A DNA stretch of 25,622 nucleotides from positions 1 through 25,622 of the IMG/VR virus record IMGVR_UViG_3300037961_004635; one strand, 5' to 3'. The DNA is from a virus. Below the pieces are notes generated by a model. It was given only the letters and a program-made list of their open reading frames with translations. It did no database searches and was not told where the DNA came from. This document shows, in pieces, positions 9,864 through 20,477 of the stretch. The translations under genes were made by a program, and so were the position numbers. Positions within the stretch are counted from its first letter, which is position 1; each line of letters starts with the position of its first letter.

Positions 9864-10120
9864 CTTTCTTCCACGTACTCTCGAAGATCCTCGTACTTGT
9901 CGGGAAGATCATCTACTCGCACGGGGACCTCAAAAGTATTCGTCGGATCCTTTGACGAAGTAATCCTCATGAAAACAGTCGGGCTGCCCTTCACTGCGGT
10001 TACTGAAACTGTTCGATTGAAGATTGTGTCTGTCATCATGATATGTCGTTCCACTGTTAGGTCTCCGACCCGCCAGTCTACAACGGAATCCATATCTGAA
10101 GAACTCTTTCTGGATTCCAT
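9860..10120 (-). CDS. Hypothetical protein, 86 aa, last gene of leftward block
   Basis: The frame looks like a real protein: Arg/Asp/Val-rich, beta-strand-like (TVSVTAVKGSPTVFMRITSS) with an acidic end, no low complexity. Start ATG at 10120 lies inside the 3' end of the preceding gene (43-base overlap) and has only a weak upstream site. Its stop codon overlaps the stop of the rightward 62-residue gene, so the two transcripts converge here with no intergenic space and no visible bidirectional terminator. Family not recognised. Confidence 0.6.
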   Translation of the reverse strand: MESRKSSSDMDSVVDWRVGDLTVERHIMMTDTIFNRTVSVTAVKGSPTVFMRITSSKDPTNTFEVPVRVDDLPDKYEDLREYVEES

Positions 10121-10569
10121 CTGATTGAGGCCGGAAATAATCTTGGGCTAAAACGAGAGAGCAACCACAGCGTCTCATCTTCCGTAGATGGAAACTGCAA
10201 CGCTTGTTTTATGTGGTTTTTTCTTATGTCGAATCTAAGCTGAACTAGGTTCGACATATTAGTTTGGTTTATCTTGCAGTCACCAAGCCAAAGGACAGGA
10301 TGAGTATCCCCCTCATAATGGGATACCCATCCATCGTGGCTGCCTTGGAAGACTGAGCTTGCGAGAAGCCAAGTCCTGTAGCGGTCTGTGTCTTGGGAGG
10401 ATAAGAGGGGCTCCCGGAACAGACCTAAGGCGGAGTGCTTGAACTTGGAGGGGAGCACCTCAACAAGTTTCTTGACTCCACGCCGAAGAGAAACCCGAAG
10501 GCCATCTCCAACTTGCCACTGGTCCTTTTGGGCTTGAAAGTGAGCCAGTGATTTGACTTCACTACCCAC
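10078..10569 (-). CDS. Hypothetical protein, 163 aa
   Basis: Leftward frame starting with GTG that overlaps the stop of the preceding gene by 8 bases. Composition is natural: many Trp, Arg, Leu, with several Trp-containing motifs (KDQWQVGDG, DGWVSHYEGD, ETLWLLSRF). No membrane segment, no recognised family. The last 14 residues overlap the next gene and look less constrained. The start is set by the tight overlap rather than by a strong ribosome binding site, which lowers certainty about the N-terminus. Confidence 0.6.
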   Translation of the reverse strand: MGSEVKSLAHFQAQKDQWQVGDGLRVSLRRGVKKLVEVLPSKFKHSALGLFREPLLSSQDTDRYRTWLLASSVFQGSHDGWVSHYEGDTHPVLWLGDCKINQTNMSNLVQLRFDIRKNHIKQALQFPSTEDETLWLLSRFSPRLFPASIRWNPERVLQIWIPL

Positions 10570-10810
10570 TAAACTTCACGGGCTTGTAGATCTTGTCGAT
10601 GTTGTCCAGCCCGTACATGATGAACATCTTGATCAGGGCATTGCGGCTGAGCGGTGGGATGTACTTCCCCCCACTCTCGTTGATCTTGTCGAGCATGGTA
10701 TCGAGGCGAGTGAAGAGTTCGCCGTCGTTGCCGAGGTTCAGGTTGATCGCCTGATACTTCCGCTGGTCCGGGGACTTGCGGGGCCTACCCACGGGTGCAA
10801 TCTGAGTCAT
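10562..10810 (-). CDS. Small putative DNA-binding protein with GRPRKSP motif, 82 aa
   Basis: ATG at 10810 is preferred because GGAG lies six bases upstream; an earlier in-frame ATG at 10837 has no such site. The N-terminus carries an AT-hook-like GRPRKSP followed by basic residues, then a predicted strand (YQAINLNLG) and two helices (FTRLDTMLDKIN and ALIKMFIMYGLDNID). A strand-helix-helix order with a basic leader is reminiscent of ribbon-helix-helix regulators, a tentative reading. It is the first gene after the terminator at 11043-11081 and the structured non-coding stretch, so it may have its own promoter and could regulate the two genes that follow. Confidence 0.75.
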   Translation of the reverse strand: MTQIAPVGRPRKSPDQRKYQAINLNLGNDGELFTRLDTMLDKINESGGKYIPPLSRNALIKMFIMYGLDNIDKIYKPVKFSG

Positions 10811-11042
10811 GTTATCTCCAAATGAGGTTTGAAACAAAGGGTGTTTTCTGATGTCGATAGGGCTAGTCGTAGAAAACGGTACAACTGAAAGGAGTCACCA
10901 ACTGCGAGAGCAAACGCAGTCACCTGCAAGTATGACTATGGCAGGCGCAACACCACGTCATGTCGCGTGGTGCGTGATAACTTCGGGCCGTAGTTGACCC
11001 TCTGGCTACTAGCCATTCCCAAGGCTCTGACAACTTACCTGT
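10811..11042. other. Structured non-coding stretch with tandem small stem-loops
   Basis: No credible gene. On the plus strand, successive inverted repeats can be read: ACTGCG...CGCAGT (about 10903-10922), CCTGC...GGCAGG (about 10924-10946), CACCACG...CGTGGTG (about 10951-10972), GGCT-ACT-AGCC (about 11002-11012) and CTTAC-CT-GTAAG (about 11034-11045). They do not fold into a tRNA cloverleaf. As inverted repeats they would also form on the minus-strand RNA, where they would make a long structured 5' leader for the gene at 10810. A non-coding RNA, a leader or a replication signal are all possible. Confidence 0.45.
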
Positions 11043-11081
11043 AAGAAAAGACTCCGGGGTCCGTGTTAGGGAACCCCGGAG
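11043..11081 (-). terminator. Intrinsic terminator of the replication/lysis operon
   Basis: A 9-bp perfect GC-rich stem (CTCCGGGGT at 11052-11060 with ACCCCGGAG at 11073-11081) is followed on the minus strand by CTTTTCTT (11043-11050). This is a classical Rho-independent terminator for leftward transcripts, 36 bases after the last gene of the operon. Confidence 0.85.
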
Positions 11082-11116
11082 CCGAACAGTGGGGGGAGCT
11101 CGGTAGGGTCGGAGGC

Positions 11117-11644
11117 TCAGGAAGAGAGATTCTTCGTGAGGAAGTCCTTCCGATATGTTCTCCCGTTGCGAGTATCATACTGGCACTTGCAGGAAACCAC
11201 AACACTGCGCTCGGGGTCAGAGAGGATATTCTCCAGATCCTGCAGGGCGGCACCAAGGTCGTTGGTGGACTTGTTCAGGCAAGTCTCGATGTGGCCCTTG
11301 AGGCGACGGGTCTCGATCTCGCAGCGCATCTTGGACTTGTCGTCGGTGATGCGGGAGGGGTCTCCGGGGAGGGTGAAGGGTGCGCCTTGGAACTTGCGGG
11401 GCTCCTCGGGGCTGCCCGCGTCTTCGAGAAGCTGGTACTCGAACTGGGCGGTGAAGCCCTCGATCTCCATACCGTCGCGCTGCTTGAACACGCTGGGCTC
11501 GATGCTGAGGTTGGTGACGAAGACCTGATGCTCACCAGCGTCGGGCCACCAGCCGAGACTGCCCATACCGTTGTCGGCCTGAGCGGTTTCGTATTGCGCC
11601 TGAAACTGAGAGAACATAGACTTCACAGAGGTGTCGATAGCCAC
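11117..11644 (-). CDS. Putative single-strand DNA-binding / recombination accessory protein, 175 aa
   Basis: GTG start at 11644 with a strong AAGGAG eight bases upstream. The protein is acidic and beta-rich with a conserved-looking core (GWWPDAGEHQVFVTNL, about residues 31-46) and a basic C-terminal part (RNGRTYRKDFLTKN). Position directly after the Sak4-like ATPase and the overall strand-rich make-up fit a phage ssDNA-binding or annealing partner protein; phage RecA-like ATPases are usually encoded next to such proteins. No OB-fold motif can be proven by eye. It is the final gene of the operon before the intrinsic terminator. An alternative is a DUF669-type protein of unknown role. Confidence 0.75.
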   Translation of the reverse strand: MAIDTSVKSMFSQFQAQYETAQADNGMGSLGWWPDAGEHQVFVTNLSIEPSVFKQRDGMEIEGFTAQFEYQLLEDAGSPEEPRKFQGAPFTLPGDPSRITDDKSKMRCEIETRRLKGHIETCLNKSTNDLGAALQDLENILSDPERSVVVSCKCQYDTRNGRTYRKDFLTKNLSS

Positions 11645-20288: not shown

Positions 20289-20477
20289 CTACTCGTCTAC
20301 TTCTCGAAGCAACTCGTCGGCTTCGATCTCATCGGAGGCAAGTCCAGACTTGATGAGGTGCTGAACGATCTGTTCGTAGTTGTAGCCAAGGGCAACCCGG
20401 CAGTGTTCGACCTTGGTTGTGAGGTCGTCGAGTCTTTTGTTTTCTTCAGACATAAGTCGAAGGATTTCCGATGTCAT
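20289..20477 (-). CDS. Small helical protein, 62 aa (83 aa from alternative start at 20540)
   Basis: ATG at 20477 has AAAGGAG seven bases upstream. A second in-frame ATG at 20540 also has an ideal AAAGGAGG six bases upstream and would add 21 residues with a hydrophobic beginning (MVFLFFLGGG). Body: charged helix (LRLMSEENKRLDDLTTKVEH), then NYEQIVQHLIKSGLASDEIEADELL, likely two or three helices. Family not recognised. It is the first gene after the terminator at 20618-20645 and precedes the glycosylase, so it may be a promoter-proximal regulator of the replication operon. Confidence 0.75.
   Translation of the reverse strand: MTSEILRLMSEENKRLDDLTTKVEHCRVALGYNYEQIVQHLIKSGLASDEIEADELLREVDE

Follow-up and report, generated by a model that had tools for sequence, protein, structure and literature searches.

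A conserved RNA with a predicted pseudoknot between a terminator and the last small operon of an uncultured phage group

What is carried by some 240 gene-free bases between a strong terminator and three small genes of a phage? The question arises at positions 10811-11042 of an IMG/VR virus record of 25,622 bases, a fragment which was analysed over its whole length (the window). According to the ORF listing, the large genes run rightward up to ~9.9 kb and leftward beyond. In the leftward block, a 175-aa gene is followed by the terminator, the gene-free bases, and three small genes of 82, 163, and 86 aa (the last at 10120-9860; all other coordinates are given in Table 1). The start of the 82-aa gene is preceded by TTTGGAGATAAC. 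Among the ORFs of at least 40 aa that were listed, only two fall within 10811-11042. One encodes 40 aa on the minus strand (10929-10807, extending 4 bases beyond the edge) and the other 48 aa on the plus strand (10851-10997), and both are of chance size. Three longer ORFs overlap the stretch by a few bases at their ends. ARAGORN found no tRNA or tmRNA in the whole window.

Table 1 Features of the locus (positions in the window)
Feature	Position	Strand	Basis
Upstream gene, 175 aa, probably an OB-fold single-strand DNA-binding protein	11117..11644	-	ORF, AlphaFold, Foldseek, VIA-align
49-nt conserved element: C-rich single strand and terminator hairpin (11083-11050), ends the upstream operon	11050..11098	-	Terminator scan
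Conserved RNA element, ~198 nt in the window	10843..11040	-	9 of 10 records; alignment
Helix A, 5' strand GUUGUCAGA	11026..11034	-	Paired with 10857-10850 by RNAalifold
Conserved GAGCC, then GGG	11018..11027	-	GAGCCT invariant in 8 of 8 rows
Hairpin P3 (GGCU/AGCC), sequence lineage-dependent	11004..11014	-	Hand pairing
Variable P4 region; three hairpins in the window lineage	10902..10981	-	Minimum-energy fold
CUCCUUUC stretch; UCCUUUC in all lineages except L028	10887..10894	-	Alignments
Helix P5, 5' strand GUUUUCU	10871..10877	-	Pair counting
CCC and helix A 3' strand CCCUAUCGACAUC, within the P5 loop	10850..10862	-	Alignment, RNAalifold
Helix P5, 3' strand AGAAAAC	10843..10849	-	Pair counting
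Ribosome-binding site and start codon of the 82-aa gene	10808..10822	-	TTTGGAGATAACATG
Small gene, 82 aa, GRPRK motif; DNA binding is a guess	10562..10810	-	ORF; Pfam and PHROGs without match
163-aa gene, function unassigned, present in 10 of 10 records	10078..10569	-	ORF; alignment; scan

Folding of the single sequence does not distinguish the stretch from chance. The minimum-energy fold of the minus strand contains more than five short hairpins or helices, including 11014-11004, 11000-10985, 10972-10951, 10945-10923, and 10919-10902. Its z-score is -1.44, and 18 of 200 shuffles fold at least as well; for the plus strand, the values are -0.28 and 80 of 200. Across eight family sequences, z ranges from -2.15 to +1.29. 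As these z-scores are without significance, single-sequence folding was rejected as proof of structure. An inverted-repeat search over 10780-11120 returned just two 9-nt pairs, namely the terminator and one that was judged to be chance. The earlier note had described a gene-poor, hairpin-rich, non-coding segment, not a tRNA, between an intrinsic terminator and a small gene. This description agrees with the chance-sized ORFs, the fold, the ARAGORN result, and the positions in Table 1.

Related contigs were gathered from IMG/VR by two protein scans, a terminator scan, and an RNA-pattern scan, which yielded nine contigs, those of L001, L002, L003, L004, L005, L006, L014, L018, and L028. Scans with the alignment of the upstream protein and with that of the 163-aa protein each gave the same nine, and the gene-based scans found no further contig bearing the element (L009, with a 30% match to the 82-aa gene, was left aside). 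In nine of the ten records (eight relatives and the window), an RNA element of ~145-200 nt is flanked by the same terminator on one side and by the same small operon on the other, and is on the same strand. The remaining record, L004, has 26 bases between terminator and small gene (L004 3918-3943) and retains the 49-nt element, the 82-aa gene, and the 163-aa gene. L005, L006, L014, and L018 carry the RNA and lack the 82-aa gene. The RNA sequences of L005 and L006 are identical, so that eight distinct RNAs remain. The records form about five lineages: the window with L001 and L002; L003; L028; L005; and L014 with L018. Nucleotide identity of the upstream gene to that of the window ranges from 97% (L001) to 57% (L028) in the seven relatives compared. 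L028 represents a blind check, as it was found by the RNA pattern and had been missed by earlier scans. Its terminator element is that of the other records apart from one further change; its upstream gene also corresponds (55% amino-acid identity), and the genes downstream are of the same kinds.

The two ends of the RNA are conserved. The eight distinct RNAs share GUUGU, two bases, and GAGCCU, later followed by GG, in the 5' part and CCC(U/A)AUCGACA(A/U)C in the 3' part. The pairing of these ends (GUUGU..GAGCC with AUCGACA(A/U)C) is designated helix A. On a plain MAFFT alignment, RNAalifold retains six of its pairs in 8/8 rows; on the same alignment, GG pairs with CC in all eight rows and the third G pairs in six. 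One pair of helix A is U-G in five rows and C-G in three, and U-G is a mismatch on the opposite strand. The helix hardly varies and contains no double change, and pairing by hand places a U-U mismatch at its outer end in the window lineage. Helix A is less secure than P5, as it is based on conservation without covariation.

Helix P5 is formed by the bases directly 3' of the helix A 3' strand, which pair with a strand located 8 to 10 bases before CCC. The test alignment comprised seven rows, six of them distinct; L002 (same P5 stretch as L001) and L006 (identical to L005 over the element) were left out. Its ends were chosen by hand at the proposed stem, which favours the percentage paired. Six pairs were scored, and a seventh, which holds in the window lineage and L005 and fails in L003, L028, L014, and L018, was omitted. 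Pairing was found in 35 of 36 cells, with changes on both sides in five of the six pairs. The covariation score is 0.80, compared to 0.10-0.32 when the helix is slid by 1-3 columns. None of 500 shuffles reached the percentage paired, none the number of double-change cells, and none the covariation score. Two measures are weaker: the number of double-change pairs was reached by 17 of 500 shuffles and the number of pair types by 492.

As the 3' strand of helix A lies within the P5 loop, the two helices cross and would form a pseudoknot. In each of the six RNAs tested, P3 begins right behind GGGAAU, with differing sequences; its chance under shuffling is 0.02-0.27 per sequence, which is modest individually. 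The P4 region varies in length by lineage and, by inspection, has fewer hairpins outside the window lineage. A pairing P2, drawn by hand in the L005-type RNAs, has a mismatch in L014 and is not claimed. Across the alignments, a conserved RNA with a predicted pseudoknot on the minus (gene) strand is well supported, strongly for P5 and by conservation for helix A. The earlier note had proposed folding and covariation in relatives as a check and had named poor folding together with missing conservation as what would speak against its suggestion. Folding of the single sequence is indeed no better than chance, but compensatory change and conservation are both present in the relatives.

An Rfam search, likewise proposed at the outset, was run and gave no match at gathering score in the window (Rfam 15). 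At a relaxed E-value, the window stretch gave TtnuCD6 and Pseudomon-1, and five loci, among them L004 without the element, gave SNORA21 twice and Ocean-VII; all of these lie below the cut-off and were judged to be chance. No ribozyme or riboswitch family model of Rfam 15 was matched, the relaxed E-value included. Three RNA-pattern scans of IMG/VR returned 22 stretches with 4 elements (L013, L016, L017, and L028), 28 stretches with 6, and 21 stretches with 5. The other 18 stretches of the first scan were chance matches. The remaining pattern stretches were rejected for absence of the partner motif, and L076 and L079, loose descriptor matches, are without GAGCC. Outside this phage group, the three patterns, which are strict so that divergent copies would escape them, found no copy in IMG/VR. 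A gapped RNA pattern gave two matches in GTDB genomes, which were rejected as both are within protein genes.

Phage records contained no DNA match to the locus, and the L014 element gave only a 19-nt match at E 9. Terminase, portal, and SSB-like protein had no match among 50,697 phage records, and the DNA polymerase had distant matches in 394 phage records, all below 60% identity. The phage group is a lineage without close cultured relatives in that phage-record collection. Judged from sequence comparison, the RNA element constitutes a new family of structured RNAs in one uncultured phage group. No published report of it was found in the open-access literature searched.

The 49-nt element that precedes the RNA is present in all ten records, including L004, in which the RNA is absent. 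In the seven relatives compared, 47-49 of its 49 bases are identical to the window, with the adjacent gene down to 57%. Such conservation is far beyond the needs of a terminator. The element may form the 3' end of a small RNA that is derived from an mRNA and has a C-rich seed, or it may overlap a promoter or another DNA signal. Its 19-nt terminator core had no match in GTDB genomes. Elsewhere in the window, a second strong terminator (20654-20624, minus) is separated by ~145 bases from a likely start codon at 20477; the minus strand of 20654-20475 yielded no further copy of the RNA core. A long inverted repeat, GGAATACTTCCCGCCG / CGGCGGGAAGTATTCC, is located at 23721-23680 (minus), just past the gene 24098-23739 and before the next gene.

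The neighbouring proteins were analysed via predicted structures. For the 175-aa protein, the AlphaFold model has a pLDDT of 81.7. The best Foldseek match is PrgE (E 3.7e-3, probability 0.91), with SSBs next, and the VIA-align comparison is weak (Z 5.8 at best, 103 residues, rmsd 4.7). The model bears a weak resemblance to OB-fold single-strand DNA-binding proteins. The model of the 163-aa protein (pLDDT 87.6) has no clear fold match in Foldseek or VIA-align. Several LAGLIDADG matches with probabilities of 0.15 or less pointed to a homing endonuclease, and this reading was set aside; the VIA-align rows shown have Z of at most 4.2 and belong to other folds, which does not exclude it. No family match was found for the 82-aa protein in Pfam or PHROGs. 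It contains a GRPRK motif, which we take to be AT-hook-like, and our guess is that it binds DNA. Farther downstream, genes of 109 aa and 79-80 aa are near-identical in L005 and L041 (the contig of L014). As the SSB-like genes of the two are much more diverged, this suggests that gene blocks have been exchanged.

The reading that we favour is that the RNA is a cis-acting 5' leader for the last operon, although we hold it to be slightly short of an even chance. It is based on the position before the operon and on one lineage in which the structure holds a ribosome-binding site. Place and strand before the same operon are constant in nine of ten records, and in L005 and L006 the GGAGG of the P5 3' strand, located 8 bases before the ATG, doubles as the ribosome-binding site of the 163-aa gene. 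Structured regulatory RNAs typically combine a conserved core with outer hairpins that vary. The element has these features and lies upstream of a gene on the same strand, as is characteristic of riboswitches. In such a leader, the two RNA ends would pair as helix A and P5 would cross it, resulting in a pseudoknot with variable hairpins in between. A protein or ligand at the invariant GAGCC and GGGAAU positions could perhaps sway the forming or opening of the pseudoknot. Access of ribosomes to the first gene would change accordingly, and the output of the last operon would be set in this way. In lineages with a distant P5, control would have to act at a distance, e.g., through a protein bound to the RNA, as for T4 gene 32, or through termination of transcription, given that a U run follows P5 in L014 and L018.

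Several observations argue against a leader. In the other lineages, P5 ends 28-39 bases before a start codon with its own GGAG, which means that masking cannot be direct in every lineage. The reading is weakest as to transcription: the element is closely preceded by a strong terminator, and no sigma-70-type promoter match was found between the two (promoter-like sites in 9-25.6 kb number 8, with 7.1 expected). L004 retains the operon without the RNA, which is dispensable in this one record. The invariance and the mismatch of helix A and the insignificant single-sequence folding count against it as well. A more far-reaching version is doubtful. In it, the RNA would belong to a new riboswitch or ribozyme class restricted to one uncultured lineage of phages; this pseudoknot (~145-200 nt, invariant GUUGU-GAGCC core) would sense a ligand or one of the phage's own replication proteins and control the last operon behind a hard transcription stop.

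A case clearly weaker than that for a leader can be made for a free-standing small RNA with its own start, which would act in trans and merely be positioned before these genes. The element directly follows the terminator, and a U run after P5 in L014 and L018 could end a short transcript. Moreover, RNA and 82-aa gene are uncoupled, given that L004 has kept the gene without the RNA and that L005, L006, L014, and L018 have the RNA without the gene. However, there is no promoter match nearby, the P5 loop is long for an intrinsic terminator, the U run is absent in the window, L003, and L005, and the element, wherever present, precedes the same operon. Processing of the transcript by a self-cleaving or otherwise catalytic RNA is unlikely. 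A pseudoknot with an invariant core and variable outer hairpins would suit it, and phage ribozymes are on record (PMC10879173), but even at the relaxed E-value none of the Rfam ribozyme models matches.

It is very improbable that the stretch acts at the level of DNA, e.g., as an origin, with RNA-like pairing by chance. Its location near the end of the replication operon and the adjoining, strongly conserved 49-bp element would be in line with this. However, the U-G pairs favour an RNA of the minus strand, and the sign of the GC skew is the same in all 1-kb bins between 9 and 15 kb, albeit in a fragment and although skew does not define a phage origin. Of the readings offered in the earlier note (non-coding RNA, leader, or origin-type region), these two results leave the origin unsupported; a conserved structured RNA on the gene strand stands, with the leader as the best reading. 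We give even less credence to ordinary intergenic sequence, in which the hairpins would be chance and the similarity due to shared descent. Single-sequence folding is close to that of shuffles, and related sequences can beat a shuffle control without any structure. Nevertheless, the double changes in P5 vanish when the helix is slid, and the core is retained in relatives whose neighbouring gene shares no more than 57-62% nucleotide identity with that of the window.

The structure model is precise enough to be tested by disruption of P5 and restored pairing, and the proposed leader can be set beside known phage RNAs. In gut phages, HDV-like theta ribozymes frequently have tRNAs next to them (PMC10879173). 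Like them, the element is a structured phage RNA; unlike them, it has no tRNA in its vicinity and no match to an HDV-like model. HDV-like folds are pseudoknotted, and the strand order of the element differs from what we take to be the HDV order. Riboswitches of marine phages are on record as well, e.g., the glutamine riboswitch of Melnitz (PMC9004378). As described there, they resemble the element in being structured RNAs between terminators and other genes, but the element matches no riboswitch family of Rfam 15. The nearest known kind in mode of action would be the gene 32 leader of T4-type phages. There, a pseudoknot precedes the SSB gene (in T4 by 67 nt, counted from the start codon) and serves autoregulation, with the SSB controlling itself (PMC3014915; PMC535899). 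Both are phage RNA pseudoknots before a gene and are linked to a single-strand DNA-binding protein. The T4-type leader lies before the SSB gene itself, whereas the element follows the SSB-like gene, precedes other genes, has several times the length, and contains variable hairpins. With a larger pseudoknotted RNA beside an SSB-like gene in unrelated phages, a wider use of such leaders among phages would become testable.
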